Notes under the pieces: generated by a model
What the model was told of the DNA's origin: nothing
The model's database searches: none
Seen by the model: the letters and a program-made list of their open reading frames with translations, nothing else
Translations under genes and position numbers: made by a program
Shown: positions 3,491 through 46,085 of the stretch, in pieces
Numbering within the stretch: position 1 is the first letter of the stretch
Layout: each line of letters starts with the position of its first letter
NCBI RefSeq assembly: GCF_003086295.3
Contig: NC_092052.1
Span: forward strand, 26,945,427 to 27,009,426
Direction: 5' to 3'
Length of the DNA: 64,000 nt
Source of the DNA: Arachis hypogaea
Lineage: Eukaryota > Streptophyta > Magnoliopsida > Fabales > Fabaceae

Positions 3491-3496
3491 CATGTG

Positions 3497-3829: not shown

Positions 3830-4008
3830 GTATCACGACTCTAACAATTTTTGTTAATTGTAACACTAGCTGTAAGTCACACATAAGATCATGTGGAATA
3901 TTAAAATGAGAATGGTAGACATCATTTTACCTTTTTTTCCATGTTGGTTGGCTTTTCTGCAAAATAATCCTGCTGCGGTTTCACAAGAAACAGCCCCGAA
4001 TCCTTTAA

Positions 4009-5823: not shown

Positions 5824-5884
5824 TATACAACATAAAAGAAACCTTCAATCCCTAAAATTTAACTGGAAACACTACAACAACACC

Positions 5885-6289
5885 ATGTCCAAATCCCTTT
5901 TCAAAACATGCAGAGGAAATCATAAGAAACATCTAAATACTTACCAATTAGTTGGAGCAGTGGAAGTCCAATGGTGTTCGGCCGAGCTGCACCAGGAGGC
6001 TTCAATGGCACCGCTAACACCGGCATGCAGCAGCAGCGGCGCGCCCTCCGTGATGAGAAGACCCTACTCGCTCGACACACCTGGGTGGGAGCCCGTGACC
6101 GCGACCGAGGTTGGTGAAGCTACAAGGGGACGGGGGAGTCGCGCCATTCTGGAACAGTGCGTGGAGGCGCGATGCGCAGAGGCGCGGGGGGAGGCGTCGC
6201 GGCGTCCGAAGAAGACAGGGAAGAGGTTTGTCCAACGCTCCCGGAATCGTGGCACGGCCGTAGATGGTTTTCAAAATATGGTGCGGTAA
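5885..6289. other. GC-rich stretch with unrecognised overlapping ORFs
   Basis: The base composition jumps to GC-rich (about 6000-6260) in an AT-rich setting, and ORFs are open on both strands (134 codons plus, 86 codons minus). Overlapping open frames on both strands are expected from GC-rich DNA and are not evidence for a gene. The block could be the first exon or 5' end of a decayed minus-strand element. No domain was recognised. The following 6300-6760 is AT-rich with no feature seen. Confidence 0.25.
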
Positions 6290-6763
6290 AACGGTGAAAG
6301 GAAATGGTAGGGTTTTGGGGAGGGTGATTTTGGTTTATCCTTGGTCAATTTTGGGGTGATGCTGAAGTGAATTAGGCTTTTGGATCCCAACCCAAGAGCA
6401 TTTGGCTAGTTTTTTGCTGGAATCATCTTGATTTTCTAGCATTGTTATAATTTTACTAATTAGTTCAATGTGCTTCCCTCTCAATCTATTTTATTCGCAT
6501 TATGAAGGTTTTATCACATAGTTTTTCGTCTTTATGTATTTCATATAAAATGAATTTTTAATATAATTTAAGGGATTAATAACCATATTTAGACAATTTA
6601 ATTTTTATGTACCCTCAATATAAGAGAATTTTACAAAACTTTTCAACCTGTGTGTTCATGTATTGTTATATAAATAAAAGTGACCAATATTTTTAAATCA
6701 AATATTTAAAAAATTACTTCACAATACATAAGATGTGATCACTCGAGCCTGTGTTTAGTTAAT

Positions 6764-7286
6764 TGTCACGGTCTTGAATACACTCCATTGAACTTACTCG
6801 ACCTTTTGAACTAGGACTAAGTCAGCCTAACCTTCAATATTTAGCAAAGAAGCTAATAACACAAGAGAAAGGAAGTTTTGATGGAAAGAATACTTTATTA
6901 CTCAAGTGTTTGTTACAAATGACTCACACACTCAAACTCTAACTCTGACTCCCTATTTATAACCATCCACCTCCTCAATGGATAGTTAGGATTAAATTTA
7001 CTGAACGATCCAGATTGATCATCCAAAATCTTCACTATAAATATCTATTCTACCATATTTCTCTAAATACTTCTAGATTATTTCATACTACTCTTCATAT
7101 TCTTATATACATCCACACTCTTTTAGAATACTCTACAATATTTTAGAGTCTTCTAAAATCTTCTAGAGTATTCTGGGATCTTCTAGAACATTTTAGAATA
7201 TTCTGGAACCATTTAAAACATTCTCAAATACCCTAAAAAATTATATAAACACCATTAAATATAACTTTCTAAAATTTAGCGTGATA
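6764..7286 (-). mobile_element. Probable solo LTR with heat-shock-type promoter
   Basis: Read on the minus strand, the block starts TATCACGC at 7286 and ends CCGTGACA at 6764, which are imperfect inverted ends of the TGTCACG type. Inside, in order on the minus strand, are a heat-shock-element array (7208-7181), a TATAAATA box near 6960 and an AATAAA signal near 6895. This is the layout of an LTR promoter and polyadenylation region. No matching second LTR, primer site or target duplication was found, so the boundaries are provisional. Confidence 0.4.
7181..7208 (-). promoter_or_regulatory. Six-module heat-shock-element array
   Basis: The sequence alternates TTCnnGAAnnTTTnnGAAnnTTCnnGAA. These are six contiguous 5-bp modules, of which only one (TTT for TTC) deviates from the plant HSE consensus. 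It sits about 220-250 bp upstream of a TATA-like box on the minus strand in a probable LTR, comparable in layout to heat-activated copia LTRs such as Arabidopsis ONSEN. Activity is inferred. Confidence 0.55.
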
Positions 7287-7644
7287 ATGTTTATGTTTCA
7301 TTTGACCTTAGGCCCTCTCCATAAACCCGCAAAGAAAAAAGAGGTTAAAATTTAACTACAACTCAGCAATTCTGTTGGGGTTTTTTCTTTTTCTAATATT
7401 AAAGTTTGTTACACAAGTATTTATCCAGTTACATACCATAATTAGCTTTTTTGCTCTGTTATTTTTAATTACTATTTTTTTGAAACAAAGGAAGCTCAAC
7501 ACATGAGAGTGGAGCATAAAACAAACATAAACAGAAGAAAATCTAAAAACAAAAGGTAACAATCCTATGTCATCTCCGGCATTGCCATCAACAACCAGTA
7601 GGATCAATACTAGTACACTCCTTATAGCTCAAAAACGTCCTGTT

Positions 7645-9165
7645 TTATATGACACCAACATTAACCTCTTGATTGTTGAAGATCCTATTATTGCGTTCTA
7701 ACCAGACGTTCCAAATAACCGCAAAAAACCCAACCAGCCACCTCTTCTGCTCCTCTTTTCTATTTGGCGTTCCATTCCAACTCTCAAACAAGCCTTTAAT
7801 GCTTCCTAGGACAGCCCAATCTTTGTGAAAACATCTCAACCAGACGCACCACACCTGCCATGTAAACTCACAAAACACAAACAAACGATGAACACACTCG
7901 ATTTCCTTTTTACACAAGACACAGATACTATCATGTTGTTGAAGTATGCCTAATCTACTCAACCTTTCTTTAGTATTCACTCTTCCTACTAAAACAAACC
8001 AACCAAACAGCTCGACTCTAGTCGGAACCAACCCTTTCCAAATCGCACTTGTGAAGCTATAACTCGTAATCTCCTCCGAAAGATTCTCAGATTGCAACAC
8101 CTGCAAAAAAGAGTTAGTAGAAAAAATACCTTTATTATCAAATTTCCAAACAAGATTATCCTCTCTGTCAGCTGATAGTTTCACTGGTCTTAATCTCTCA
8201 TGAAGTTGGTGCGCTAGTTCCAACTCCCATTGAAACAATTCTCTCCTCCAATGGAAATTTCAAATCCACTTTAACCCATCCCAGAACCCACAATCCCCTA
8301 TCACAGATCCTTGTTGGTTTGAAACAGAGAAGAGCCTTGGAAAACTCGCTTTCAGAGGACCACCATGGACCCAATTATCTTCCCAGAAACATGTTCTACG
8401 CCCATTTCCAACTTCCATTGTCAGCCCACTCATCATTTTTTCTTTTACCCGCTGTTCCTTTATATTCAACTGACAGATGTCTTTCCAGGGGCTACCCTTT
8501 ACTGGTAGAGTCTGACTAGAAAGCATAACCTGAGGATTCAAATTGTTACAGGAGCATACAATCTTCTTCCATAACGGACAATCTTCCTTGGAGAACCGCC
8601 ACCACCACTTAAACAGCAGTGCTGTGTTCCTGAGCACTGCATCCCCAACCCCTAACCCTCCAGCCTTCTTAGGAGCCTGAACCATTTCCCACTTCACTAA
8701 AGGTATACCGTTGTTACCATCCTCCTTACACCACAGGAATCTCCTCTTTAAGGCAATCAACTTGTCAGCGACCGCCTTCGCCATCTTGTACAAGCTAAGG
8801 TAATAAACCGGCAGGCTATTCAACACCAATTTAATAAGAACTAGCTTGTCTGCTTTATTTAGAACCTTCGCTTTCCATAAGCTGAGATTCGCTTCCACCT
8901 TATCTATGACCGGTTTCCAAGTCTTCACCAAATGCGGGTTCGCTCCTAGAGAAATCCCGAGATACCTCTCAGGTAAAATAAACAGCTTGCTTGCACTCTA
9001 GAAGGCCACACACATGTTCCACCCACTCCTGCTCACAATTAACTGAGATGAGATTCGACTTATCAAAGTTAATGCTCAGACCCGACATCAGCTCAAAACA
9101 CCGCAGCAACCTCTTATAATTCACAATTGTCTCTGTCTCCGGAGGACAAACCTCTCCCGGAATCG
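7645..9165 (-). pseudogene. LINE (non-LTR) retrotransposon ORF2, 3' part
   Basis: Minus-strand frames at 9165-8940, 8931-8260 and 8238-7645 together give the downstream part of a plant LINE ORF2. The first carries CPPETETIVNYKRLL and LSINFDKSNLISVN from the end of the reverse transcriptase. The second has the thumb-like region with KMAKAVADKLIALKRRFLW, and the third has the zf-RVT domain with CVLCKKEIECVHRLFVFC. The catalytic FADD region and everything upstream are missing, because homology stops just after where FADD should be. Stops and a frameshift near 8250 and 8935 break the frame. This is a typical 5'-truncated dead LINE. It follows the probable solo LTR directly. Confidence 0.85.
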
Positions 9166-9836
9166 TGACAGCAAACCTCTTATAATCCTATTTTAATTAC
9201 TATTATATTCAACATCTTAAGCATGTATTGATAAAATTAAATAACCCTCCCCCTCCCCTCCTTTTATTTCTTATTTTTAATAAGTTGTCATGTCTTAAGA
9301 GTTAAGATGTTTGAACTTTGAATCCCCTCCAACACAAAAGCAAACTTTGATTTTGTAAGAGTCCTATTTGTTCGCAGGAGCAAAAAATGGTGCAACTTAC
9401 ATGAATTGCACAACTTGACTAACTCAACCCAAAGCCATCTCCATTATTTGTTTTCCATCGTCACCACGCACACAACTACACACTATCTTTATCACATAAT
9501 AATAATAAGAAAATATTATCAAATTTATCAACATTCTTTGACCCTTACCACTGAGTACAGAGGCAGGCGTCGAGTTGTCCTTTCAAATCAAGCTAAGCAT
9601 ACTAATAATTGAAAATATCTATCATGTAAAAAAAATTATACTATTATTTATATATTATTAGAAAAAAAATAAAAAATCCCAATTCATTTCACTAATTATT
9701 CTTTTAAATTCTGAAAAAAAATATTTTAATTTTTTTATGCTTTTAAAAGTAAAATATATTTTATTTTTTAAATATTAAAAAAATAATTAAGATGATATAT
9801 TAGAATTTACAATCAGTACACTTATTAAAAATATTA
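9166..9836. other. AT-rich intergenic DNA
   Basis: Low-complexity AT-rich sequence. A short plus ORF at 9406-9612 has no recognisable content. No feature supported. Confidence 0.4.
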
Positions 9837-29457: not shown

Positions 29458-30379
29458 GGAATGACCATTGGCATCAAACTGACTCACACTTAATGAAATG
29501 GAAGAGTTGTAGTGATTGCCTGCTATAAAAAGTTTGTCCTGGAATCAGTTCTATGCGGTAATCACACAGCGCAATTTTGTTTGGTTTTAGTTATTTAATG
29601 TAGCATCTAAAGTCTAAACATAGATATAAACCAGAAAAGAAAGTGTATCTTTTTGAATTAGTCTTGAGATTTCATTCTAAGTACTGTCATCATATCAATT
29701 GTACTGTGCTAGTTATCCTTTTTAAGACACTAGCCAAATGTTATAATATTGATAATGTTTTCATAGTTATACCTTTAATGGTTATGTGTTGGCGAACAAG
29801 TATTTTGTTGTTAGTGTTCCCCTTGGTGGGGTGTGTTAGGAACTTTCTCAAAATTAGGATTTATTTGATGTATAAATCAATTCTCTTGTTTGAAAATAGA
29901 GAAGAAAGAATTGATTTGATTTAGAAATTTCATGAATTTGTTTAATTGTTTTAGTTGTTTAGAATAATTTTTTCCACAACATATGCTTAAGTTTCTCAAC
30001 TTACTATACTTTTTCTCTTATTTAAATGTTTTGATGAAATAAAAAAAATTTTGTATGAATGAATTAAAACTCATTTGGAAATTCTCTCAAATTTTTGAAA
30101 TTTAAATTATTTATTTTATTCCCCCATCATATCAATTTTGTTTGCTAATTTGTAGTGATGAATGAATTAAACACTAGTTTTTCTGTTAATGGTACTAAGT
30201 ACGTCAAACTCATAATTGCCAATAAATCTCCAGAATGCATTTCTATTTAGAATAAGGAAATAAGTTAGAAAAAAAAAGTTTTAGAAACTAATTACATTTC
30301 AGGTATCTACTAATTTTCTCTTGAATCGCTCCATTATTTTATTTATTTTCTATATTCTTTATTATTCAAAAATAATATT
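29458..30379. other. 3' flank of NOP2 and tail-to-tail spacer
   Basis: AT-rich sequence between the stop of the NOP2 gene and the minus-strand WNK pseudogene fragment. The plus ORF at 29643-29924 has no recognised motif. Confidence 0.5.
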
Positions 30380-30622
30380 TCCAAGAAGACCTAATGTTAA
30401 CACCTAAACCCACTTTCTTGTATACCTTCACAACATTGTCACACTCACTATATGGATCTCTATTGTCACCATTTCTAACACACATCCCAAATGAGTATAT
30501 GTCCCCATTTCCGTGTACTTCTCGTATAACTCCGGTGCCATGAATTCCGGCGTCCCAAGAACCAAACGCGCTGAGTGGCTCCTCCCCACAATTGTGGCTA
30601 ACCCCAACTCACCAATCTTAAC
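30380..30622 (-). pseudogene. WNK11-like kinase pseudogene, exon 3 fragment
   Basis: After an acceptor ...GAATCAG at 30623, the minus strand encodes [37 protein letters not shown] and, after small frame changes near 30513 and 30450, [16 protein letters not shown] and VYKKVG. This is the activation segment and C-lobe of a plant WNK kinase, closest in wording to WNK11. The DLG metal-binding motif reads ELG. The phase (starting with GTT AAG after CAG) fits exon 2 at 55172-55482, which ends ...TGQ with CAG|GTATGT. I take it as the same gene, now 24.5 kb away because of two MULE insertions. Confidence 0.85.
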
Positions 30623-31108
30623 CTGATTCATACACATTACAGCAAAAATGTTGCTTATGGAATCAGTTAGTAAACATTGTAACTATATCCAAACTTATAA
30701 ATTCTTTCCTATGCTAATCGGCTGAAGTATGTAGGAGACACCGTGACTTGTTATAGTTTAATGGTTGGTTAGATCTAACAACATTTTCTTGTTATCTTGA
30801 TGCGCTAAGAAAAACATTTCTATCTGTGTAATAGTATTTTATCGGACGTGTATATTAATGAGTGAGGACTAGGGAGTATGACAAATACTTGATCTACTAT
30901 TCTATAGTATCACGATTTTACTATATGGAAATAGCATAAATTAATTTCCATATGGAAAGGAAATTGGTATAATGCACTATATTAGTCATTGGTGAAATTT
31001 ACGTATTTGGGATGGTAGCATCTTTTCGCAACTTGTGAAAAGTATAAAGGACTAATGAAAGCTTTTTGCAATCTGTGAAAAGCCTTTTAGACCGATGGTT
31101 GCCTTTCG
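30623..31108 (-). other. Left remnant of the WNK intron, with 40-bp repeats
   Basis: The remaining intron sequence before the large MULE. Its last part (31021-31060, 31061-31100) is two about 40-bp units with TTTTCGCAACTTGTGAAAAG / TTTTTGCAATCTGTGAAAAG. A third unit starts at 31101 and is cut by the MULE, then resumes after 45282. Confidence 0.75.
31100..31108. repeat. Target-site duplication, left copy of the 14.2-kb MULE
   Basis: TGCCTTTCG, identical to 45274-45282. Confidence 0.95.
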
Positions 31109-31550
31109 GGTGAGTTATAGCATGCACCGGTCCAAATGAGGAGATTGATGCACCTGTCACCTCTGACACAAGTTTCTGCTTTGGTGGCAGGTCTTTTTGT
31201 TATTTACAACATTGCTTATATAGTTCTGCATATAGTGTTATTACCCCTCAATTTATACATTTTTCCATTCGAACCCCCTTGTATGAATGGGCTGTTGACT
31301 GAGTTTTAGCCCATTTGGTAGAGCGAGGAGATGAAGAGCGACTGCCATGAACCATCATCTCAAGTGACGGTGAAGCCCTGGATTTAAGGGATTTAGGGTG
31401 TGGGCAGTGATATTGTTTCATGGTCTATTTTCTGGGTGACAAACAAGGTAGGACAGAGCACAGTAGTGTTTCGGCAATTTTTGGTTACAGAGTATTATGG
31501 CTGATGTAAAAAGATGTTAATCCGTGAATGCCATTTTTGCGCAGGACAGC

Positions 31551-34099
31551 ATGGAGGGAGAATCCGCGGTGGACGAATGTTACCGGTCGTTGTCTGCTGA
31601 AGAAGAGGGAGGCAATGGAAGCGATGCCTTCGACCCTGGTGGCGACGAATTCGGTGACGACGTTGAGGATGGGGAATTAGGGGTGGAGTCGGATGCAGAG
31701 GAGAATTTCGGGGATAGCTTCTTTGACAACTGGGAGGAGAGAGCAGTGGACGGTATTGCGGAGCTGGGGTGTATAAATTTCAAGCAAATCACTGCAAAGG
31801 AGATTATGATGTGTCATTTTTCAGATCGATCGGTGGCATTCTTGTTTTACAATTTGTATGCAAAGATGAATGATTTCACTGTGAGGAAGAATAAGACTCG
31901 GCGAAATGTGAGGAATGAGGTTACTCAACAAGAATTTGTATGTTTCCAACAGGGGTTCAGAGGAATGGGGTCCGTTAACAACAGCACGCGACGGAAACGT
32001 GAGCCGAAGGCGGAGACCAGATGCGGCTGTGAGGCAGAGATGCGCATCCACGTGCACTCCGAAAGTGGTAGATAGATAATATCATACTTTCAGAACGTTC
32101 ACAACCACGAGTTGCTGGACGATAGACTGACTTTCATGCTACCGGGCTATAGGAAAATGGATGCAGCCGCCCTGGAACAAATGAACATGATGCTTAGAGT
32201 TGGGATTAAAACGCCATAGATTTATTCATCTTTTGTGCAAACTGCCGGGGGATTCCAAAACCTTCCGTTTCTAAAGAGGGATATGTATAACCAGATAGGG
32301 AAGCAACGGAGGCTCATTCGCGGGGACGCGACAGCTTACCTTAAGTTCTTGGAATTAACGGCGCAGGCTAATCCTGGAATGTTTGTGCGTTATTTGGCGG
32401 ACAAGGAGGGTCGTTTGGTGCACTTGTTTTGGTCGAATAATTGCAGTCAGCTGGATTATGGTTTGTTTGGGGATATCGTTGCATTTGATGCGACATATCG
32501 GAAGAATAAGTATATGTGTCCACTGGTTGTGTTTTCTGGAGTGAATCACCATAACCAAATAATTGTGTTTGCGGTTGCGCTAGTTGCAAATGAGAATGAG
32601 CAGACTTACACCTGGTTGCTGCAACAGTTCCTGGACGCCATGAAGGGTAAAGCACCTGGGTGTGTGATAACAGATGGACATGGAGCGATGAAAAAGGCAA
32701 TCGAAGCGGTGTTTCCTGGGGCCTATCACTGTTTGTGTGTGTGGCATCTGGTGAGGAATGCCATGTCTAACCTAAGCAACCCCAGATTTACTTCTGAATT
32801 TAAGAAATGCATGCTGTTCGATTATGAGGTGTGGGAGTTTGAAGATCATTGGCATTATATGGTGGATGCGCTTGGTCTGGCTGATAATCAATGGGTTTCT
32901 AACCTTTACTTAAGGAGAAGGATGTGGGCAACTGCACATATAAGGGGCAACTTCTTTGGGGGGTTTTCGTACACCGTCAAGGTGTGAAGGATTGCACTCA
33001 ATGTTGGGTAAATTTGTCCAGTCTCGCCATAACTTGAGGGACTTTGTTGAGCAGTTTATGCGTTGCATATCCCAAATGAGGTCTAGGAAAGCACACTCTT
33101 ATCTGTTATCCGTGGTTGGGGAACCAGTGCTACAGAGTCCATTTCATGATTTGGAGAGGTCAGCTGCAAAGAAGCTCACAAGGGTAATTTTCTTCAACTT
33201 CAGGCCCATGCTTTTCCGCGCTTGCACACTGAAGGTACGAACACACACATGGAGCCAGACTTCTAATACATTCACTTTGTCTAGGTCAGCTAATACGCGT
33301 AGGGAGTGGCAAGTGTGTCACTATGGTGACAGTAACAGTTTCAAGTGCTCTTGCTTGCGAATGGAGTCCCTTGGTATACCGTGTGATCACATTGTAGCAG
33401 TGCTGGTACATTTGGAGATGACTGACATACCAGACAGTCTTGTTCTGGATCGTTGGTCCAAGAGTGCTCGCTCGAAAGTAAGGGCCTTTGTGGAGAAAGG
33501 TCCGTTTTGCTGGGATTCAACGATCACCTGCCGCAATTGGATGTTGAATGATCTATGCAGGAAAATGTGTGTTCTTGCGTGTCGTCACGAAGCTGAATTT
33601 GCCGACATGACGGATAAAGTTCTTCATGAGATAGCGCGGCTGAAAGAGATTCAGGATTCTGGTGATGCAGGTGGTCTGAATGAAGTTGGAGAAGCTTCAA
33701 CACTAGAGGGCTGTGTGAGGGATCCACAGTTGGTGCGGTGTCGAAAGAGGCAAAGAAAGGAAACGCTGAAGGGGGTGAAGAGGTGCGGTCTTTGTCGCCA
33801 GACAGGGCATAATCGAGTATCCTGCCACTTAAATCCCAACAGCAGAATGAATACACAACAGGGTGCATCATACTTTGGTGGTGAGGGCGAAGGTGAAACT
33901 GGCACAATGGAGGACTCGTCTGAGGAGGAGGAGGTAACACTTTGTCAACAAATTTGTTTAGTCGTCGTTTTCATTTAATGTATTGACCATTCATCGATTC
34001 GTTGTTCATGGCTAACTGAATGTATCATTGTAGTTGGCATGGGACGATGCAGCGGACCTTGCCTTGGACGAGGGTTATGATTCACAGGGCACAATTTAG
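31551..34099 (+). pseudogene. FAR1/FRS-type MULE transposase, broken
   Basis: Starts MEGESAVDECYRSL after an acceptor-like TTTTTGCGCAG. Order of parts: acidic leader; FAR1 DNA-binding domain with FYNLYAKMNDFTVRK and a Cys-rich CGCEAEMRIHVH piece; MULE DDE domain with IVAFDATYRKNKY (first Asp), CVITDGHGAMKKAI (second Asp), CLCVWHLVRN and CEGLHSMLGKFV (Glu); SWIM finger CSCLRMESLGIPCDHI; zinc knuckle CGLCRQTGHNRVSC. A last exon (34034-34099) follows an intron at 33933-34033. Defects: TAG at 32073-32075 (Trp expected), TAG at 32217-32219 (Gln expected), and a one-base frameshift near 32965. Otherwise full length, so death is recent relative to the LINE and gag remnants. Confidence 0.9.
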
Positions 34100-36183
34100 T
34101 AACCATTCCTGTGGTTAGTGCGCTCACAGCTCAATCCAGTGGGAACGTGGGTCTTCATATTAGGCAAAGGTTAGGTGATGCAGCAGGTGTTTTAGTTTCT
34201 TATAAGATCATGCGTGATGTTATATGTTTGGACAAACAATGGCTAGCTATAGAAAACATCTGTTTTGGACTGTTATACTTTCAAATTGACCATATTCAGG
34301 CCGCTACATGACATTATTTTGTAACGCACTATATTGAGATTGGAAATTATTCTAGAGCATCCGTGGTGCTGTATGAATTGAAATTGCAAATTAGTCTAGA
34401 GAATCCATGGTGCTGTGTGAATTGAAATTTTAAAGTAATCTAAGGGACAATGATTTTTTTAAAAGTACTTACTTAAACGTCATAAGATTGTATCATGTAC
34501 AAAAAGTTAAGTCTAGCAGTTGTAACACATCAACAACCACAACACATAAAGTTTTTGCCAAATCAGAAAAGGCAATCCAACGTCTCTCCTTCGGGAATAT
34601 CTGGCGAACCGTTCGGCATGTCGAAGTGGCCATCGGCAGGTGGTGACTCCACAACGGCCATGTTGTTGAATGTTCTTTTCCAGAGAGAAAGAGTAAGTTA
34701 GTGGGAGTTATATGGGCGCTCTAAGCCTGTTGTGTTACAACCCTTTTAAACCGGAGGAAATCAACGTTTTTGCTATCTCGCGCTATCTACCTTTCCAACG
34801 GAGTTCCATTCCCGTATACGCTCCGTCTGACTATCGTATAAAGTTTCCAGTAAGGAGTTACTACTAAGGTGAAAGACTCCCAGAGCTGCTGACTGGTCAT
34901 TGTCAATGCATTGGACGAGGATGGGCTCAGAAGATGGGCTCAAAGCAGGATGGAAGGTCAATCATACTTTCATTAAATGTCTAAATTGTCATTTCTAATG
35001 CCAAGAGAATGGCAACCCTAATTAAACGTTGTATTGCAATGTGAATATATGCATTAAACCATTTATAAGGCATAAAAATTACATCTTATACACAGATATG
35101 CATGTTAAGGCACACTTAAACGCTGAATACGCTCGCTGATATTAGTATCATGTTCCACAGAGGGTTTGTTTTATCCTTTTGTTTAATGTTTATACCACAT
35201 AATAGTTTGCATGTTACGGCCCACTAATGTATGCATACATGATAGTTCCACATATTAGCATGTTCCGCATATTGGCATGTACGCTTAAAATACTTAAAAG
35301 ACAAGGGGTTATTTATTTTTTTTATTCGAAAAAGGGCGTTAATATATTTTCTCATAGAAGCTAAGCTAAGTGGCAAGGCAACCCAGATGTGGTTATGCTA
35401 TCGTTCCAAATTCCATGCATGTAACCAAAATTTTTTTAACTTGTTATTCGAATATGTGATTAAAGCGACAAAAAAATAGTTTCAACCACCCCAAAATAAG
35501 AATAAACTGACTGCTGCTGCGTTAAAAACCTCGGTGGGAGCGAAGAAGGACGCTCTGCAGGCTTCATTTTGTCCCATCCTTAACTTTTTCCCAGTTATCA
35601 CTGCACATACTGTCATAAAGACAATCCCAACATAGGACAAATATGGTAGAGTCAACTATCACTGCAGAGCATTAATTGCAACAGGCCACACCTGATTACA
35701 CTTTTCCTTCCTTGAATTACAACTATCTTAGACAACGTTAAGCAAATCCAATTTCAAAGTTAAGGCAGTACATAACGGTTAGCTAATAACAAAAGCGACA
35801 AACTAAATGATTCTGGGGGGCATGTTGCAGTCCCGCAGAACCTTATTTTGTCCACAAGCAACTGCTTGCCTAGTCCACCATCTGCTCCCCCGTTCCATCC
35901 ACAACTCCGTCCTGAGAGGAAGATGATTTCACGGCGTACGTCGTTGCTACCACTGACCTACGCACATCCTAACCAAACCGCCGATTGCGTTAAAGGGTCC
36001 ACCCGCAAGGGACACGTCTGTTCTGCCGCGGAGTGTAGAATTCTCAAGCTGCGAAAGACAAACATTAGGGGGATGTAAATTACTACACATGGACATGTTT
36101 TACTTACATTCATATGCATCTACTTACAACGCACTAATTTCATACGTGTTAAAGGAACCTTCAGGGTGGAGCCATTGTATCAC
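34100..36183. other. MULE interior, no gene recognised
   Basis: Small frames occur (34577-34660 minus with MAVVESPPADGHFDM; 34773-34961 minus; 35848-36078 plus) but show no known motif. They may be exons of the minus-strand Ulp1-like gene or of a lost cargo gene. 35000-35500 is AT-rich and empty. Confidence 0.35.
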
Positions 36184-37961
36184 CTAGGCAGCAGAGCTGT
36201 CGCTGCAGAACGTAAATATGAAGCGGGTTATAGCTGACAGTAACTCAATGTTCCAATATACAGACCCAACACTCACAAAACAAGGTGCACCTGGTATTGC
36301 AATTTGGTATCCCATTTCCTCGCCGTATTGGCCACCGAACCATGTCTTTGGGAGTGTACTATCGCAGGGGTCCAAACGCCGGAGAAGTCATCATCGCGTA
36401 CAGCATTTCGAGCTGAGGCATGGTCCCCAAATTAGGAACATATAGAAACTGCATAATTTTGGTTCAAACATGGTACAACAAACAATAAGAAGTCACGTTA
36501 CCACGCGTTCCATAAGCTGCTCTCGGTCGCTGACCATATTCACGTCCGGGAAGGAGTCCAGGTGGTAGACGGTCTTCTCCCCAAATTCGACCACCATGCA
36601 GTACCAGTGCATGAAGATATCCTCAATGGGGATGAAGATCTGACAGCAGACGAAGAAAATAAAAAACTCGAAATTAGTTCCAATGGGGTCAGCAGCCCTG
36701 AAAGTAATGCAAAATGCCAAAAAGTCCATATGGATTGAGACACAAACCCTGTTCAGGAATCTTGTTGGTTTCAACCAGAAAGGCACGTATATCTCGTTGA
36801 GCTCCACAACAGACAATCCCTTACTAACGTCATCCTATAATAACAAATAAATATACTTCAGAATCCGGTAAAATATGCAGATGTCGTTGCATCCTTGAGT
36901 TAACCACTCACAGTGAAGCTTGGTAGGAGACACCAAAAATTGGGATGCTTAAGGTGCTGTATAAAACAAGTGTTGCACATGGCCACCATCTCCATGACGG
37001 CTCCGTCAATGGGACGCCCAGGTATGAGGGATTGGATTTTTTCCGCCTTGTTAGTCTGTACTGGAGCATTCTCACAAGAGTATCTCTGCAATAGATGCCA
37101 TGGTTAATGTTGTTGTTCAAGGATGCAGAATTGTATAAACATCGCGTCAAAGTAATCAGGAATTATAACATACTCCATCGAATGACCATCCGAGAAAAGG
37201 AAGTTGAACAGGAGTGTCTCCGCTCGGTTAAAGTCCATGGCATATGTTGCCTTGTACTTCTACGTTAAACACACGGGGTTAAATGAAATTCAAATAAGAA
37301 CGCAAACATGGAGGAAATAATTAAGGAGATGATTTCTTCATACCCGTGTGTTAGCCGGCGACGAGGTAGATTTGTCACGCTTAGCAGGTGCTGATTTGTT
37401 CACTTTGTCAGAAGGGGATCGAAATAGCCTCTTTCCCTTCATAGCTGGAACGGTGGACTGTCTATTGGGACGGTCCTCGTCGGTGTCAGGAGCTATTATC
37501 GGCCGAGTAGCATGACTATCGACTGGGACACCCATTGGTGTCACGTCTAACACTGCACCGCAAGCAACACAACTTTCCTGGGACAAAATCTCAGCCGACT
37601 CAGGCGTGGCTTGCACGAAGAATGCTGCTCCAGTCCCATCTTCCGCCCTACAAATGATGACTTAAGGGATTAGGTATCTACACATGTAACGTATAAGTGG
37701 AAGGACGTATGCAACACAATGTATCTGCCCCATGAATTTCCTTACCATAGCCTCGGAGGTTGCTGTGTCCCGCCGGAAACATTGAATAGGTTCGTCGGCT
37801 TCATCTCTCTTGAGTGAGGGTGTCTGACAATCTTTGCTAATTGGTCGTGAAGCCTTGCTTAGTGTATGTTTGTCACTTTTTACGCTTAAAAGCGAGCCAT
37901 ACCGAATTGTGTTAGCGCTAAAATTTTCCCCCAACATTGAAAAATGGCGCTTGCAACCCAT
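36184..37961 (-). pseudogene. Ulp1-like (C48) peptidase gene of the MULE, degenerate
   Basis: Minus-strand exon-like pieces in order: 37961-37662 (MGCKRHFSMLGENF...), 37616-37338 (Ser/Lys-rich linker), 37260-37165 (YAMDFNRAETLLFNF), 37091-36900 (KAEKIQSLIPGRPIDGAVME), 36816-36493 and 36450-36190. The fifth has DDVSKGLSVVELNEIYVPF just upstream and IFIPIEDIFMHWYCMVVEFG then YHLDSFPD, the His and Asp positions of Ulp1/SENP-type cysteine peptidases. The last piece has GIPNC, where the family has a PNC motif shortly before the active region, but no convincing active-site Cys context follows. It is convergent with the transposase, as in other plant MULEs that carry Ulp1-like genes. Splicing is inferred, and activity is doubtful. 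Confidence 0.65.
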
Positions 37962-38508
37962 GCCTCCCTTTAATCATCCAATTTTGGCGTTTTCTGGAGC
38001 AATGCCTCATTAACGACATCCGTTTCAGATGAATCTACTGTTACACATATGCTTTCTATCTGAACTTGGTTTTTGTCGTCTTCTGTGGTGTATCTCAAAA
38101 ATACTAAAATGTACATACGAATAAAAACTAGACGACCACAACAACAAATGACGAAAATGATTCAAACTGAATAACTGTATATATATTTGTTACATTTAAT
38201 TTCACAATAAATTCTTCAGATAATTCCAAGATAATTATATCATGTCTAAAAATTATATTTATACTGCCTACATATTATTTAACTATTGACTTATAGATAA
38301 TTTTGTGGTCAATTCGTCAAAATATAAAACACAAGTATATACTGATCGGATCTTAGTTATTATAAAGAGTATTATTATAGATTATTACCTGAATATTTTT
38401 ATAATGTTTAAATGAAAATTATGTAAAAAGAAATATCGAAAAAATTATTCAGAGATGCAAACAAATTATATTTAAAACGCAAAGCAAATACCAAGAGTTT
38501 CAGAGTAA
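37962..38508. other. MULE interior, AT-rich, nothing recognised
   Basis: AT-rich DNA between the Ulp1-like gene and the duplicated block. No ORF worth noting. Confidence 0.4.
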
Positions 38509-39115
38509 GCGTACACCAGAAGCCGTGGACCGTAAATCAGGAGTACTAATCAGGGAACCCTAAACTCGAAACCACGTGAACCCGGCCCGTCCAACCTAAG
38601 ACACATGGACCCGGACCCTAAGCCATGAACTCGTTGACGACCCCGAACCATGAAACCACCCGACCGGCTCACCTTGCTGTGGCCCCTAAGTCATGAACCC
38701 CCGACAACGAACCATGGACCGTGTACCATGAATCGTAACCACGAAACCCTAAACCCTAAACCCGGATTCCTAAGCCCTCGAACCCTTAGCCGTGATCCCT
38801 AACGGACATACCCCAGAGCGTACACCAGAAGCCGTGGACCGTAAACCAGGAGCACTAATCAGGGAACCCTAAACCCGAAACCACGTGAACCCGGCCCGGC
38901 CAACCTAAGACACATGGACCTGGACCCTAAGCCATGAACTCGTTGACGATCCCGAACCATGAAACCACCCGACCGGCTCACCTTGCCGTGGCCCCTAAGC
39001 CATGAACCCCCGACAACGAACCGTGGACTGTGTACCATGAACCGTAACCACAGAACCCTAAACCCTAAACCCAGATTCCTAAGCCCTCAAACCCTTAGTC
39101 GTGATCACTAACCGA
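38509..39115. repeat. Tandem duplicated 309-bp block of telomere-like words
   Basis: Two copies (38509-38817 and 38818 to about 39115) start GCGTACACCAGAAGCCGTGG. Each is built from degenerate short words such as AACCCTAAACC, CCTAAGCCATGAAC and CGTGGACCGT. AACCCTAAACCCTAAACCCGG-like runs resemble the plant telomere repeat (CCCTAAA)n. A shorter run of the same words is at 39828-39905. The surrounding MULE DNA is AT-rich, so this block stands out in composition. Confidence 0.85.
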
Positions 39116-39915
39116 AATTTGTATAAATTTATGTTCCATATGAACTCTTTATAATATTGTTAGGTAAAGAAGTTTTGTCAACTACTGTTCTTGTTATTAG
39201 CAAACCTAAAACTAATTTTAAAAAAATACTAATAAAAAATTAATATTCTTTTGATTAGATAAACATACCAAATATCTAAAATCATTTTTTATCGTGCAAC
39301 ACTAAACACGAAAGCACATGAACCATGAACCATCAACCATGTCCTCACCCTTTCGATTCCAATTGGAACTGGATAATGACACCAGTTCACCAGGGACTTT
39401 ATTAAATTCCATAATGAATACATTAATGTCAATTACCCGTTTTCACAACCTTCCACAAACACTTACAGCCCTTTCGGCTACCACATTTATGAGACAAAGT
39501 TGTGTGCTATTCAATTTACTCCGTATTAAATGTTACACTTCAATCTTTAAATTAGTTTCAACCTGACGTGGAATGACTTTAAATTTAACTTCAATTGCAT
39601 GCAATGCACTATCAAACGTCAAAATAACGCCAAGCTTCAAGACTAATTATGCAATAAAAAAACAATATCATATTCGAAGCTGCATGTAACGATAATTTTC
39701 ATTTTTTCTGTGTACGAACCCTTGTAAACCACGCATAAAGAAATAAATTGTAAGTATTACATAACAACGTAACATAAACATAAAAGTCAGAATCCTTACC
39801 CAAAAAGTTGCATAATAAACCATTCACCAGAAACCCTAAAACCGCCAACCATGAACCCTAACCAAGAAACCCCAAACCCTAAACAGTAAACCGTAAACCC
39901 AAAACCCAACCAAAA
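39116..39915. other. MULE interior with telomere-like words near its right edge
   Basis: The plus ORF at 39318-39566 has no recognised motif. 39828-39905 repeats AAACCCTAAA / CCATGAACCC words like those of the duplicated block. Confidence 0.4.
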
Positions 39916-40529
39916 TTATCCACGGCCGTGCAAGGTTTCCCAAACATCCATCCGCTCCCTCAGCAGAGCGTTCTCAGTCTCCAATTCAGCGACACGGGAG
40001 TCCACGGACAGACTGGAGACCCGCTGCAACTCCAGAAGCCGTTCCTTGCAACGCTGAGCCACCTGGAAATTGAAATCCAGGATCTCCTTCCCGGAGTCTC
40101 CCACAACCGCCTGCAGAGATACAAAAGTGGCATCTTGCCTGGCCATGCGTTCATCGGCTGAGTACCTGCCGAAGGCAGAAAAATTGACTCCCTCCAGCGG
40201 TCCAGCCACTTGCACCATATACCCATAATAGCGCTCGCCCTGGACATGTACGCAATCACGCGGCACAAACACTGGAGGCTCTGTCTTAAGGGCGTCGCAT
40301 GCCCTGCGTAGCATCTGCTCAAGGTCCTCCATGATGACATACTCGTCAGGATTCACCGTGGGGACAACCTCTGAACGTTCAATCGCAAAAAAACAATAAC
40401 AATAAGTAAACCTCAACCATAACCGGGAAAAAACATAATCTAAAATCGCCTACCCTCGTCGCCGAGAAGGACGCCAGGAGCAGTTCCTCTGGATGAACTA
40501 CCTCCATCACCAACGCTGGGAGTCGACAT
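39916..40529 (-). CDS. Orphan protein A, dsRBD-like, MULE cargo
   Basis: Two exons: 40529-40454 (MSTPSVGDGGSSSRG...) and 40370-39916, with GAGG|GTAGGCG donor and CGTTCAG acceptor. They total 531 nt and give 176 aa in frame. Residues about 60-125 read like a double-stranded-RNA-binding fold: PPVFVPRD, ERYYGYMVQVAG (beta), GVNFSAFGRYS (beta), then ADERMARQDATFVSLQAVV (helix with the K/R-x-A-spacing of such domains). A GKEILDFNF signature follows, then a coiled coil (RVAELETENALLRERM). ORF B at 43859 is a clear paralogue (shared G-Y/F-G, ARxDA/TREDA, GKEI-x-D-x-N). I know no named family. The dsRBD reading is from the pattern only. The frame is intact and could be expressed. Confidence 0.7.
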
Positions 40530-41363
40530 TGTTCCAACCCAATAAACAGCGATTCACTCACAACAGGATGTAACAACCTTCAATCTTATTCACAAATTCA
40601 TTAGCGAAGTTATCTCAAACATCAAACTTATTTATATATGACATGCCTCATCACCTTCTCCAATCCAATTATGTATACACAGTTTTCTCATTGGACAGTC
40701 ATACCGCTTCCCCAGGGCTTTAAATTCGATAATAAATGCATTAAGCTCACGTATCCGTTTTTCCCACCTTCCACCATAAGTTCAGGGCTTTTTTACCTCA
40801 CATTAAACGCGTCACAATCTCTCTTCTCTATGTGATATACGAAACGATTTTCAAAAACAAAAAATTCACATACATGATATTAAAAGCCTTAACTATGCAG
40901 ATTACAAACCTAATTAATTATTCATATATTAAATGACAAAATATTTGCCCCAACGTTTAACGTTATTCTGACTACACGTGGAAGAATCTATACTACTAAT
41001 TACAAGTTTCAAAAAGTATAGGTAACTAACAACTTTTGTTTAACAATGTGTGAACAGTGTAAAATAATAGGATTAATAGAGTAAATTTAATTAATAGCAT
41101 TACATTAGGGTGTAGGGTATTTTTATTAATAACATTCCTCATACACTTTTCACTTTAATATAGTTACGCTTACTCTAACGTTTAATATTACGCATATATT
41201 ATTCAGAACCTATTTGCTACACTACAGTTCAGGATTCCAACGGGATCGGTGGACTTATAAATATGGAGGCACACTCCTTTGTCACACTCCATATCCGCAA
41301 CTCTATACACATATCCCCCACCTTATCGAAATACGAACCAACAGGAACAAACGTAAAACGACA
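40530..41363. other. Divergent spacer between orphan A and the F-box gene
   Basis: The two genes point away from each other, so their promoters would lie here. The plus ORF at 40638-40835 is not recognised. TATATAG and TATAAATATGG words (41255-41265) precede the F-box start by about 100 bp. Confidence 0.4.
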
Positions 41364-42080
41364 ATGGACCGTTTCTCAAATACCCCCTTCCTTCCGAATG
41401 ACATTTGGGTTACATTAACCGTTAAAGTTGTGTCAAACTCCATTCAGGACCTCTGCAGTCTCATAATGACTTGCAAGGCTGCACGGGATGCGGGAGACGC
41501 GAATATTGTTCACCGCAGTGTTTCTATACCGCCACCGCATGCGACGCCGTGGTGGTGGAGCCGCGACACCGAGGCAACAAGATTCTTTGACCGTTGCATG
41601 GCCGCTGGCCATCCAGAGCTTCTGTTTCGTGAGGCGCTTCGGGAACTCTTCATCAGACGTAACCAAGACGTTGGCTTCCAAATGCTGATTAGTGCAACAA
41701 GTAGAGGCCATGAAGCAGCCAAATACGCACTCTCGATGACGTTGCTGCTTCGCAGGGACGTCAACGATGGAAAATGGAAAGGGCTCGAACTGTTTTGCGA
41801 GCTAGATGCGGCTGGTTTACTCGCTGATTGTAATGCAAGGTGCTTCTCAATACTGAATAACTTGTGGCCGGATGAGGTCTGAATGCCCCATATAGAAGAA
41901 CAACATACGGTGTGTGCCTCGCCCAGGTGCTCTACCAGGAGCCACATGGGTCCTCTGTATGACAATCGCAGACGGGCAGCAGAGAGAAACTCTGTCCATG
42001 CTTTCGGAGGGGTCGTTCATATCCCCTGCATCCACTGTCGGGCGGACTACGAGTTGCTACTCTTCGTCAACCTCCCATGA
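41364..42080 (+). pseudogene. F-box protein of the At1g67623 type, interrupted by in-frame TGA
   Basis: Starts MDRFSNTPFLPNDIWVTL. An F-box-like helix set follows (VKVVSNSIQDLCSLIMTCKAARD). Then VSIPPPHATPWWW, FFDRCMAAGHPELLFREALRELF and LISATSRGHEAAKYALSMTLL, the Sel1-like repeat part found in At1g67623-type F-box proteins (SCF substrate adaptors). TGA at 41880-41882 stops the frame after WPDEV. The same frame continues directly for another 66 codons, ending with HIPCIHCRADYELLLFVNLP, which has the CxxC...RADYE tail usual in this family. So a single nonsense codon splits an otherwise full-length gene of about 238 codons. It could instead be a truncated but functional version. Confidence 0.8.
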
Positions 42081-42640
42081 GTTATGTTCCCAAGTAGATT
42101 TAATGTTCTGTTGTTTACACTTTTCCTGTAAAAGTTTCGTACAACATATTTGGTTACTGAAATCAATTTTCATTAACGATTGCACATGCTTTAGTTTGTA
42201 AATTGTCATATTTCTTTCATTGATAACAGTACAAAACTAAAAAACAGGTTATGATTTCTACTTGTCAACTTAAATAAACTATGAAACCAAACCATATTTG
42301 AAAGTAAAGGTATAGGTAAACCATTATTTACCTAAAAAATTTTAATACCTTGCCCGGTTCTTTTATAAGACTCGGTTTTTTTTTTTTATATTTTGGTTCA
42401 ACCGGGTTTCCATCATTCATCGAACCAACATTACGCTAGTCCAACCTTACTTTCTGGTCCTTGCAGAAGGACACATCTCATCCATACATTCGACCACTTT
42501 TTTCAGCCGTTGGAAATGTTACAAAAATATAATTTCCTGTTCGCATCACAAGACCAATCGTCCTTGGGTATAAAAACCTCCAAATCCAACCTCCCATCTT
42601 ACCCGAACTCAACACACCTCTCCCTTCGAATCTCAATATA
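42081..42640. other. MULE interior between F-box and viroplasmin-like ORF
   Basis: AT-rich. The plus ORF at 42393-42641 has no recognised motif but leads into the next frame and could hold its lost start. Confidence 0.35.
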
Positions 42641-43159
42641 GTCCGAGCCAAAAAGAGATACTATGTTATTTTCCGTGGGAGGGTCCCTGGTATCTATAGT
42701 TCCTGACTGGCCTGTCATAGCCAAATTAACGAATTTAGCGGCAACCTCCATAAGTCTTACCAAACCTTCGATGAAGCTCGTATGACGTTCGAACAATTCT
42801 CCTCCGACAGACGCTTACAGAATCAGCTCAACCATAATGTTGCTCTACTGCATCGTAGTCAACCACCAACCATTCAGCAGAACCCATTACTGATGGCTGA
42901 CCAAGTACTCCCCTTCGAGGAAGGCTTACAGGGTCATCGTCCAAAAGAACATGGAGACAACCACCCAATTGTTGACCAAATACTCCCCTTCGACGAAGGC
43001 ATACATGGTCATTGTCAAATAGAACAAGGGGACAACCACCCAACTGTCCGTCAAAACAACCGATCCAACCAAACACAGCGGCAACAAATTCCTTACCCGT
43101 GTATCCTATTTATCTTCGTTACCATCTTCGTCCTATACTTAGCTTTGGTTAGGAAGTAG
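42641..43159 (+). pseudogene. RNase H1-N/viroplasmin-like protein with C-terminal membrane segment
   Basis: The frame gives KKRYYVIFRGRVPGIYSS, then TGA (42704-42706) where the domain has its conserved Trp, then CHSQINEFSG and HKSYQTFDEARMTFEQF. This is the small hybrid-binding domain found at the N-terminus of eukaryotic RNase H1 and in caulimoviral viroplasmin (PF01693 type). After it come two copies of a 40-residue repeat (DQVLPFEEGLQGH... / DQILPFDEGIHGH...), a Gln/Asn-rich stretch and a hydrophobic end YPCILFIFVTIFVLYLALVRK, a likely tail-anchor. No RNase H catalytic domain is present. No ATG is in frame just before the domain. Translation could restart at Met 42782, giving only the tail part. 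Confidence 0.7.
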
Positions 43160-43858
43160 GCTACTCTTAACCTTAAAACACCACCTACCACCATGTGTTA
43201 CCTGCATTGTAGTAGGCTTACTTTTCACTGTCTTTCACTGTTTACTTTTTAACATATATTCTATTGTATTAATTACTTTAATCTTCAGTTCACGCATAAC
43301 ATCAGGTTATTATTCCAGCATAATTGTCATTAAGTCATCAAAGTATAATTATTCATATGTGATTTTAGTACTTTAACCCGTTAACTCATTTACTCTCATC
43401 CTCTATTTACGACACCTAAACACATACGGGACATGCATTCCAAAAGCCACCCCACGACAAATTTTTTTCTGCACATTGTGTCACCGCAAGCACAGCCGTA
43501 CAGTCCAAGCCAATCCCCGAAAAAAGACAAAACAAAAGTAAGCATATCTTCTTCTCATGCAGGGATATCTCTGCCAACATTTAAAATAACCACTGCACAA
43601 TAACGACAAAACAAATTTGAGGGTCAAACAAACAGAATTTCACCCGAATCGTACCTCGTTGTATTATAAGGTAACGTCATTAATCATAACATGATCACCA
43701 CTAATTAACACAAACTAAAACACATTACATACTACTTTGCGGTTTAATCACCAAAAATAAAGGACACACAACAATAACTGAACAAATACAACATAACCAA
43801 ACACCAACGACACATTCAGAACACACACATCAAACTCCTTCTTCTTCGACATGGTGTC
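43160..43858. other. MULE interior, nothing recognised
   Basis: AT-rich DNA between the stop of the viroplasmin-like ORF and the stop of orphan B. No ORF above background. Confidence 0.4.
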
Positions 43859-44311
43859 TTACAAGGGAATCGTACTGGCCTTCAGCTTCTCGTAAGATTC
43901 TTCCAGTTGACCTACCCCAGCCCGAAGCGCGTTATTTGAGTCGCCAAGAAGCTTCACCTTTCTGTAGTTATAATCCCGAATCTCTTTTCCAGTTACATCA
44001 AGCAACACGCACATCATCTCATAAGCAGCATCCTCTCTTGTAGCTTTTTCAACCATCGAGAAATGACCATTGACAAATAGCTCTATCTCAAATGGATGTC
44101 CAGGAATAACAACCGTGAAGCCAAAGAACGGGCCTTGCTCTCCGAAAAATCGTTCCACCTTGAAGAAACAGGGGCAAGGGATCTCTGCCTTTAGGCAAAC
44201 TTTCAGCAACCACTCCTCCATGCTGCTCACAACTGCGAAATCCACGTTAAGCTCCTCCGCCGGAATTACAGGAATCCCTTTTGCACAGTCATCGAACAAC
44301 AAAAATCGCAT
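43859..44311 (-). CDS. Orphan protein B, paralogue of A, dsRBD-like
   Basis: 150 codons, open from MRFLLFDDCAKG. The true exon may start at GIPVIPAEEL (44286) after an AG acceptor, as in orphan A, but no first exon was found. From SSMEEWLLKVCLKAEIPCP it aligns with orphan A from MEDLEQMLRRACDALKTEPP: GPFFGFTVVIPG with YYGYMVQVAG, NGHFSMVEKATREDAAYEM with FGRYSADERMARQDATFVS, and GKEIRDYNY with GKEILDFNF. The C-terminal coiled coil is weaker (GVGQLEESYEKLKAS). It lies 120 bp downstream of viroplasmin-like ORF 2 on the same strand. Function unknown. Confidence 0.6.
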   Translation of the reverse strand: MRFLLFDDCAKGIPVIPAEELNVDFAVVSSMEEWLLKVCLKAEIPCPCFFKVERFFGEQGPFFGFTVVIPGHPFEIELFVNGHFSMVEKATREDAAYEMMCVLLDVTGKEIRDYNYRKVKLLGDSNNALRAGVGQLEESYEKLKASTIPL

Positions 44312-44432
44312 AAATTAATAATTTTAATAACCGGACATAAAATGACCAGAATAAACATCACTAACAAAACTCCAAATCGAATAAAATCACATTCCATTAC
44401 TGCAAAGCAGAGCTTCATAAATACACTAACTT

Positions 44433-44756
44433 TTAAAAAGTGAATGTCGTTTCACAAGTCTTACATGAAACAATTGAAAGGCAAGGATAGCCTCCGCCGG
44501 AGACAGCCAATTTCTTGTCGCCACCTCCATCCGGCGTCACTCGACCAGTTTCACCACTATGACCTTTCTCAGCACAAATCGACGACATCATCGCTTTGAA
44601 GCACGAGCATGCGCGTTCAAAGCTATTGAATCCGTGAAACTCAGAAAACGTATAATCCAGAACTTGCTGGTTCGCCTCCTCCCAACTGGTGTATACACCG
44701 GGCTTGTGCCCCTTCGTAACGGCAATGAACAAGAATCGTTGCATATTCACCTCCAT
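44433..44756 (-). CDS. RNase H1-N/viroplasmin-like small protein
   Basis: 107 codons, intact. Residues about 6-55 (RFLFIAVTKGHKPGVYTSW, EEANQQVLDYTFSEFHGF, NSFERACSCFKAMM) match the RNase H1 N-terminal/viroplasmin-like domain: F-x-A-V-x-x-G-x-x-P-G-V-Y-x-S-W, then Q-V, then F-x-S-F-x-x-A. The conserved Trp is present, unlike in the copy at 42641. The C-terminal half is Gly/Ser-rich with two Cys pairs (CLSIVSCKTC) and no known fold. No nuclease domain. In RNase H1 this domain binds RNA:DNA hybrids and dsRNA, so a nucleic-acid-binding role is inferred. Confidence 0.7.
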   Translation of the reverse strand: MEVNMQRFLFIAVTKGHKPGVYTSWEEANQQVLDYTFSEFHGFNSFERACSCFKAMMSSICAEKGHSGETGRVTPDGGGDKKLAVSGGGYPCLSIVSCKTCETTFTF

Positions 44757-45273
44757 CTCTCCTACCCTCTCCTATCCTTCATACTCAACTTGCGCCTATA
44801 TATAAACATTTATTCTCCATTCAAAGTTAGGTGCTTCGTTGTTTCTTTATGTTTTTTTTTTGGGTCACACATGATTGTTAACGTTTTCTAAGATTTATGA
44901 AGTTCAATTCCTCCCTATAATTTTTTTCCCGTTCCCTTGAACTTTGTTTTATTTTCGGAATCAAAAAATGTAAGCCCACAAATTTTAACACAATATATGC
45001 CCAAACTGGACCAAACAATTTCACCAGCCAACCAAAAAACATGTTTCAGTCTCACCCCATAATTTTTCGCCATTTACAAAGCAGTTCCAATGAGGCCAAA
45101 TTAAAACTCCACCCATTAACCCCTCCCTCCCTTCACCAGTGAACTTTCCACCTGACACATGCCACCTCACTGTACCTCACATTTGCGTGGCACTCTCTCA
45201 AGTTGGACACCAATGCAGAAAAGACATGGTGCACCAATCTTCTCATTTGGACCGGTGCATGCTATAACTCACC
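44757..45273. other. Right end of the 14.2-kb MULE
   Basis: A plus ORF at 44559-44891 overlaps the viroplasmin-like gene in antisense and is a shadow. The last 46 bp are the right terminal inverted repeat. Confidence 0.7.
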
Positions 45274-45282
45274 TGCCTTTCG
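45274..45282. repeat. Target-site duplication, right copy of the 14.2-kb MULE
   Basis: TGCCTTTCG, identical to 31100-31108. The sequence after it (CAACCTGCGAATT) completes the interrupted 40-bp repeat unit. Confidence 0.95.
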
Positions 45283-45826: not shown

Positions 45827-46085
45827 TTCGGAGGGTCCGTTTTGAGTTTAGAAAAAAATAAAAAAATAAAAAGCCTAATCGGAGGGTCCGTTTTGATTTA
45901 AAAAAAAAAGAAAACAAAACTAATCGGACGGTCCGATTTATGTTTTCGAAAATAAAAAAAAAATTTAATGTTGAAATCGGATCGTCTGATTTTTATTTTT
46001 AAAAATAAAAAATAAAAAATACAAATCGGATCCTCCGATTTGTACATTATTTTTTTCTTCAAACAAATCGGACCATCCAATTTGA
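45827..46085. repeat. Array of TCGGANNNTCCGATT palindromes
   Basis: At least six sites (near 45828, 45879, 45922, 45977, 46025, 46066) match AATCGGA(c/g)(g/c)(g/t)TCCGATT or half of it. They are spaced 43-55 bp apart by A/T-rich filler. They lie about 280-530 bp inside the left end of the MuDR-type MULE and upstream of its transposase. Confidence 0.8.

Follow-up and report, generated by a model that had tools for sequence, protein, structure and literature searches.

The 64,000-nucleotide stretch of the peanut (Arachis hypogaea) genome analysed here, called the window and corresponding to C17:26945427-27009426 in the assembly searched (C numbers denote its chromosomes), contains a Mutator-like element (MULE) of 14,165 bp at positions 31109-45273, which encloses a transposase pseudogene and a set of cargo genes. 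A preliminary description, made from the DNA letters alone, had fixed its borders by inverted ends identical over 32 bp and an exact 9-bp duplication, and both are borne out: the two terminal inverted repeats (TIRs) are 96% complementary over 46 nt and identical over their outermost 32 nt, and the target-site duplication (TSD) TGCCTTTCG stands on both sides. The joined flanks align with 86% identity across the junction to C7:22606245-22606717, where the target is present in single copy (TGCTTTTCG) and where no TIR motif was found when tested. Therefore, the window element was inserted here, and the corresponding site on C7 lacks its cargo; C7 is a chromosome which appears to be the homoeologue of C17 as judged from the flank match and the chromosome numbering. 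The 9-bp TSD, the TIRs, the MULE transposase domain, further copies and the empty site together identify the element as a real MULE. Its features are as follows.

31100-31108, no strand: left copy of the TSD TGCCTTTCG (9 bp, exact)
31109-31154, + strand: left TIR (46 nt, from comparison of the ends)
31551-34099, + strand: FAR1/MULE/SWIM transposase pseudogene with two in-frame stops and one frame change (limits inferred from reading)
34577-34580, no strand: internal deletion junction, at which at least about 4.8 kb of A-family sequence is gone (comparison with longer A copies)
36493-37973, - strand: Ulp1-like gene of several exons (limits approximate; Peptidase_C48 match below cut-off)
38508-39112, no strand: noncoding tandem array of two copies of a 309-bp unit
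39916-40449, - strand: main exon of a dsRBD1-like gene, frame open (with a probable first exon extending to about 40530)
41364-41882, + strand: F-box/TPR_27 gene (At1g67623/At2g35280-like), cut short by an early stop codon whose last base is 41882
42628-43159, + strand: RNaseH1N-TM, an RNase H1-N (Cauli_VI) protein with a hydrophobic C-terminal end (in-frame TGA near 42706)
43859-44771, - strand: RNaseH1N-dsRBD2 gene of two exons (44771-44433, 44314-43859), with one base apparently lost near the C-terminus
45228-45273, - strand: right TIR (46 nt, from comparison of the ends)
45274-45282, no strand: right copy of the TSD TGCCTTTCG (9 bp, exact)

The window element has decayed and carries an internal deletion; it belongs to a family of giant multigene MULEs, here termed A. 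The FAR1-type transposase noticed earlier is recognizable by its domains, with Pfam matches to FAR1 (E 1.6e-12), MULE (PF10551, E 3.1e-33) and SWIM (E 3.2e-5), but the gene is broken in this copy; both in-frame stops lie between the open reading frame (ORF) pieces 31521-32075 and 32220-32987, and the frame changes around 32950-32980. In other A copies, the stretch deleted here at about 34578 contains a gene of B3 type together with a second Ulp1-like piece. The tandem arrays are noncoding in all five A copies examined and vary in unit and copy number, some being longer than that of the window, and no GC-rich tandem array of the A type was found in the two copies read of a second family, B (see below). 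Repeats arranged in tandem, with a motif resembling AAATCGGA...GTCCGATTT, are present both to the right of the window element (45854-46041) and within the B copy on C19. A short distance left of the element (30366-30682, - strand), overlapping ORF remnants resemble pieces of a protein kinase, possibly of WNK type. A lead based on RY motifs, suggested by a GCATGCA in the TIR and the B3-type gene of the longer copies, was rejected because the window flanks show a similar CATGCA excess over a second-order Markov expectation (observed/expected 25/14.8 and 14/10.4, compared to 15/12.7 to 31/18.1 in the elements); the CATGCA count was above the maximum of 100 shuffles in all seven elements.

Besides the Ulp1-like gene the cargo of the window copy consists of four genes rather than the five ORFs counted previously, because the second RNase H1-N piece and the second piece resembling a double-stranded RNA-binding domain (dsRBD) are parts of one gene, RNaseH1N-dsRBD2; 44433-44771 and 43859-44314 are the two exons of what is predicted as a 246-aa protein in Arachis. 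Its Cauli_VI match (PF01693, 41.5 bits for the exon) is above the cut-off and is also found in 17 of 22 homologues. In RNaseH1N-TM, the same profile scores 17.3 bits in the window piece, under the cut-off of 21, and 56.8 bits (E 2.5e-15) in an open B copy. The Ulp1-like gene, also held by the A copies on C5, C11 and C13, does match Peptidase_C48, but with a score under the Pfam cut-off (E 0.0018, 18.6 versus 20.7 bits), and the second Ulp1-like piece of the longer A copies gives a similar picture (E 0.0048, 17.2 bits, cut-off 20.7). The supposed F-box protein owes its label to the names of annotated homologues, e.g. putative F-box protein At1g67623; its profile match is TPR_27 (E 1.1e-31 for the window ORF and 4.4e-32 for the B protein), and no F-box profile match at E<=1 was found in either. 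Three cargo genes, F-box/TPR, RNaseH1N-TM and RNaseH1N-dsRBD2, are damaged in the window copy. The cargo homologues carry Arachis names, mostly of A. hypogaea, and five are from Stylosanthes scabra. Forty-eight Arachis F-box/TPR-type proteins match the B cargo gene, some of them again named putative F-box protein At1g67623.

A genome search with the 68-bp left end yielded 40 scored matches among 48 candidates. Three of the ten A loci first fetched (C5, C11 and C13) are colinear with the window cargo, the 35-kb copy on C7 is without the stretch matching 35.6-42.5 kb of the window (Ulp1, dsRBD1, F-box), C12a is a 4.1-kb deletion derivative retaining the RNaseH1N-dsRBD2 gene and part of the transposase, and five short ones (C9, C12b, C12c, C12d and C19s) have no more than the ends in common with the window element. 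The fuller A copies span 19-28 kb, as exemplified by C19:15724073-15743372 (19,300 bp, TSD TTATTTTTG), C11 (24,542 bp, TSD ATCAAATGT) and C5 (27,781 bp, with a poor TSD of 6/9). Among 11 TSD pairs measured, six are exact at 9/9 (window, C11, C12a, C19, C19s and C12d), those of C7, C12b and C12c are shifted by one base and that of C9 matches at 4/9; the right end of the C13 copy was not found. At C13:121267400-121307399, two A left ends with an identical 9-bp left flank (AATTCCATT) are located 21.4 kb apart, as if the element and its flank had been tandemly duplicated.

Matches of the F-box and dsRBD genes led to a second family, B, whose TIRs of about 50-60 nt are unrelated to the ends of A; the A end motifs were searched for and are absent from both B copies read. 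These copies are located on C19 (27,417 bp, TSD TAAATTATA) and on C5 (27,124 bp; its position within an AT repeat makes it impossible to assess a TSD). The C19 copy contains an open transposase frame of 724 aa with FAR1 and MULE matches above cut-off (PF10551, E 5.4e-28). The gene order in B is transposase, RNaseH1N-dsRBD2 (same strand), B3-type (opposite), dsRBD1 (opposite), F-box/TPR (same) and RNaseH1N-TM (same), and the cargo frames are open in many B-type copies. The B3-type protein of the B copy matches its profile with E 9.7e-7 and 29.1 bits against a cut-off of 30.1, an additional B ORF of 215 aa has no Pfam match, and no Ulp1-like match was noted among the B ORFs when compared with A. 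The preliminary description, which had a gene set with introns travelling in a MULE, would have lost its ground had no other copies held these genes or had they stood at this site in relatives lacking the element; the set was encountered again in further copies as well as in a second family and the presumably homoeologous C7 site is empty, while the window copy itself proved decayed and internally deleted.

The relationship between A and B differs markedly along the elements. Five A copies were compared with the B copy on C19, identities being calculated over aligned codons. The transposases share 49-55% DNA identity and the RNaseH1N-dsRBD2 genes 50-53% (only the dsRBD part being aligned in four of five), and in both the synonymous sites are saturated. 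In contrast, the identity amounts to 79-87% for F-box/TPR, 73-82% for dsRBD1, 81-82% for RNaseH1N-TM and 67-83% for B3 in the four A copies holding it, with dS values of 0.2-0.75. The intergenic stretches of the block B3 - dsRBD1 - F-box/TPR - RNaseH1N-TM align as well, at roughly 75-85% (blastn). Because selection on amino acids cannot make the synonymous sites of one block young and those of its neighbours old, this cassette was most likely transferred between old MULE lineages as a unit. A copy on C6 near 86.02-86.05 Mb looks like an A/B recombinant. On its left side the sequence is of B type (90-92%), as is its transposase (90%, with three stops); the right part is also B-like (78-85%) and includes a degenerate B TIR, and a dsRBD2 gene of B type is present in inverted orientation. 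The interior of the copy, however, contains an RNaseH1N-dsRBD2 gene of A type (91-92% identity over 357 bp), and its cassette is 83-88% identical to A copies and mostly 79-85% to the B copy on C19.

The association of transposase and cargo was further followed over the genome by coordinates. The search lists comprised no more than the best ~150 scored candidates of 287 to 9,562; for the locus counts, all 150 dsRBD2, 150 F-box and 65 + 149 transposase matches were used, together with the best 95 of 150 dsRBD1 matches and the best 87 of 150 listed B3 matches (151 matched). The transposase matches formed 194 distinct loci, and cargo was scored downstream within 40 kb. At family B loci (transposase >=89%), dsRBD2 is found downstream in 20/23, and B3, dsRBD1 and F-box in 19/23 each, with a largely uniform spacing; at family A loci (>=83%) the values are 9/12 for dsRBD2, 7/12 for B3, and 8/12 for both dsRBD1 and F-box. 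The C-like loci (transposase 68-81% to A) hold dsRBD2 in 21/29, B3 in 5/29, dsRBD1 in 2/29 and F-box in 1/29, the B relatives (57-79%) dsRBD2 in 6/39 and the other three in 0/39 among the matches listed, and other, more distant loci (50-64%) dsRBD2 in 2/91, B3 in 8/91, dsRBD1 in 1/91 and F-box in 15/91. The first cargo match has a single orientation per gene and group, except for one B dsRBD2 (19 same, 1 opposite), which by coordinates is the C6 locus. Counted from the cargo side, 62/150 dsRBD2, 33/95 dsRBD1, 59/150 F-box and 51/87 B3 matches lie within 40 kb of a transposase match, compared to means of 0.5-1.0 and a maximum of 8 in 300 circular shifts. Most matches of three of the four cargo genes are thus without a scored transposase nearby among the matches listed, where nearness may be missed.

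Some loci show peculiarities of their own. At C2:94965676-94982674, a family B locus, a single transposase match is followed downstream by two sets of F-box, dsRBD1, B3 and dsRBD2 matches at a distance of about 10.5 kb from each other. On C5 and C15, F-box and B3 matches at 1603939-1615751 have identical coordinates, scores and identities, which may reflect homoeologous replacement or an assembly effect. In further groups, exemplified by C8:29312110 and C7:15320804, the dsRBD2 gene lies mostly on the opposite strand at C-like MULE loci, and distant MULE loci (~55%) show two F-box-type genes in a row, sometimes with a B3-type gene downstream.

Between the families, the cargo is under partial purifying selection, i.e. 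in three of the four cassette genes. The ratio of nonsynonymous to synonymous substitution rates (dN/dS) between the A copies and the B copy on C19 is 0.29-0.60 for F-box/TPR and 0.49-0.59 for dsRBD1, with a bootstrap upper limit below 1 in 5/5 comparisons each, and 0.43-0.65 for B3 (4/4). In an antisense control of the F-box gene against the A copies, one frame gave 0.85-1.54, and the frame with coinciding third positions mirrored the gene (0.29-0.58), as expected. Between the two B copies, the limits are below 1 for the transposase (0.27) and dsRBD1 (0.19) only.

As best overall explanation, and with high probability, we propose a giant MULE whose accessory genes serve the transposon and whose cassette was exchanged by recombination between lineages. 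That the genes serve the element is deduced from the purifying selection on three of the four cassette genes between the families. Several observations weigh against this proposal. RNaseH1N-TM has a dN/dS of 0.81-0.95 between A and B, the limits including 1 in 5/5, and between B copies the limits are not below 1 for F-box (0.71), B3 (0.55), RNaseH1N-dsRBD2 (0.58) and RNaseH1N-TM (0.69); moreover, all A-B ratios share a single B copy and are not independent. The window copy and many A copies are broken, the F-box match is absent at 4/12 A and 4/23 B loci, and 14 or more of the 23 loci are known from coordinates alone. In the C6 copy, no recognizable left end was found and the transposase has stops, and the dsRBD fold model (see below) is poor. 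Part of these data would fit passive passengers, i.e. host genes captured by MULEs that hitchhike without benefit and decay: the window cargo is damaged, RNaseH1N-TM is nearly neutral, F-box, B3 and dsRBD2 are without clear constraint within B, and MULEs are well known to pick up pieces of genes (PMC13317346). We nevertheless consider this scenario unlikely in view of the upper dN/dS limits below 1 for F-box, dsRBD1 and B3 between A and B, the open frames in many B-type copies and the gene order kept over many loci. Alternatively, rather than counteracting silencing, the accessory genes might aid transposition or influence when it occurs, a role that has been proposed for maize mudrB. Additional genes whose role is unknown or related to integration have been described in MULEs (PMC6446971), a B3-type DNA-binding protein would fit, and nothing speaks directly against such a role; however, the dsRBD and RNase H1-N matches suit RNA duplexes better than DNA ends, and we rate it as possible but rather less likely than not.

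Two other scenarios concern the origin of the shared block. An A element might have landed in a B element and then lost its outer parts, as the B-type sides around the A-type RNaseH1N-dsRBD2 gene of the C6 copy could suggest. Such nesting is rather improbable, since no A-type end was recognized in the two C6 end pieces, the A end motifs are absent from the two B copies and the spacing is much alike over the B loci; if true, it would in any case be a route of exchange and no alternative to it. Independent capture of the same host gene cluster by A and B is in line with the host-like names (putative F-box protein At1g67623) and with the 91/150 F-box matches without a transposase match within 40 kb, but is less easily reconciled with intergenic stretches aligning at roughly 75-85% in a conserved order, and judging from the transposon copies compared we regard it as unlikely.

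The proposed exchange of a cassette between long-separated families suggests that the cargo helps the elements, perhaps against RNA-based plant defences. In such a scenario the accessory genes would serve the element as follows: cargo proteins binding double-stranded RNA or RNA:DNA duplexes, and resembling the dsRBDs of plant DRB and DCL proteins, would interfere with host silencing, the F-box/TPR and Ulp1-like proteins would act on host regulators, and the B3-type protein would act on DNA. The RNA-duplex theme of the preliminary description finds partial backing in the domain matches and in a fold resemblance, the best fold matches being plant small-RNA dsRBDs of HYL1, DCL4 and DRB4, but the underlying dsRBD model is of low confidence. 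Interference with host silencing is, tentatively, the function we find most likely for the cargo. The duplex theme parallels strategies of viruses (see P6 below), and polerovirus P0 offers an example of an F-box silencing suppressor. Still more doubtful is the extended idea that predicted RNA-silencing suppressors (dsRBD proteins of DRB type and RNase H1-N proteins, partnered by F-box/TPR and Ulp1-like ones) might constitute a transferable multigene module passed as a cassette between anciently separate MULE lineages, and thus a transposon counterpart of viral silencing suppressors.

Several known systems share individual traits with the peanut elements. The VANDALs of Arabidopsis (Hiun/VANDAL21 with VANA, VANB and VANC) likewise combine a MULE-type transposase with further genes and have noncoding tandem repeats that gain and lose units, comparable to the arrays of the A copies, and VANC targets are tandem arrays differing in unit and copy number (PMC5735166). 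However, VANDALs are non-TIR MULEs (PMC13317346), whereas the window element has 46-bp TIRs; the peanut element also has more genes, its arrays occur in A and in neither of two B copies, and no Pfam match to the VANC-type DUF1985 was found in the ORF pieces scanned, which covered only part of the Ulp1-like gene pieces. Kaonashi/KIU and other MULEs bear an Ulp1-like gene, and Ulp1-bearing as well as VANC-bearing MULEs are thus already known (PMC13317346), but the Ulp1 match in peanut is below cut-off in A and was not noted among the B ORFs compared with A, and further genes (B3, dsRBD, F-box/TPR, RNase H1-N) are present. Pack-MULEs similarly enclose host-like genes between MULE ends; they carry fragments without a transposase (PMC6431247, PMC6446971) and did not exceed 7 kb in their first report (PMC6431247), whereas the peanut elements of 19-28 kb combine whole small genes with a transposase gene in both A and B. 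Arthropod MULEs measure 1.4-10 kb (PMC13359780). A more remote analogy is provided by the viroplasmin P6 of caulimoviruses, which in cauliflower mosaic virus includes a region of RNase H type and acts as a suppressor of RNA silencing, probably via DRB4 (PMC3836500); the cargo has a Cauli_VI domain, and the dsRBD model resembles domains of DRB4, HYL1 and DCL4. Nevertheless, the domain in common is of small size and occurs in cellular RNase H1 as well, and the peanut element is no virus. MULEs with additional ORFs have been reviewed (PMC6446971), but no report on multigene MULEs of peanut, on the exchange of a cassette between MULE families or on comparably long MULEs sharing a multigene cassette was among the papers listed in searches of the open-licence literature, as judged by titles and the beginnings of abstracts.

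The data reveal MULEs in a plant that reach 19-28 kb and bear several accessory genes, which are partly under selection and include a block common to old lineages. Such sharing of a block between MULE lineages would represent a modularity better known from bacterial mobile elements. In addition, some Arachis proteins annotated as ordinary genes, among them RNase H1-N proteins and putative F-box protein At1g67623, probably belong to transposon cargo. The escape of MULEs from silencing outside the VANC system would become directly testable if RNA silencing is indeed blunted by the dsRBD and RNase H1-N proteins.

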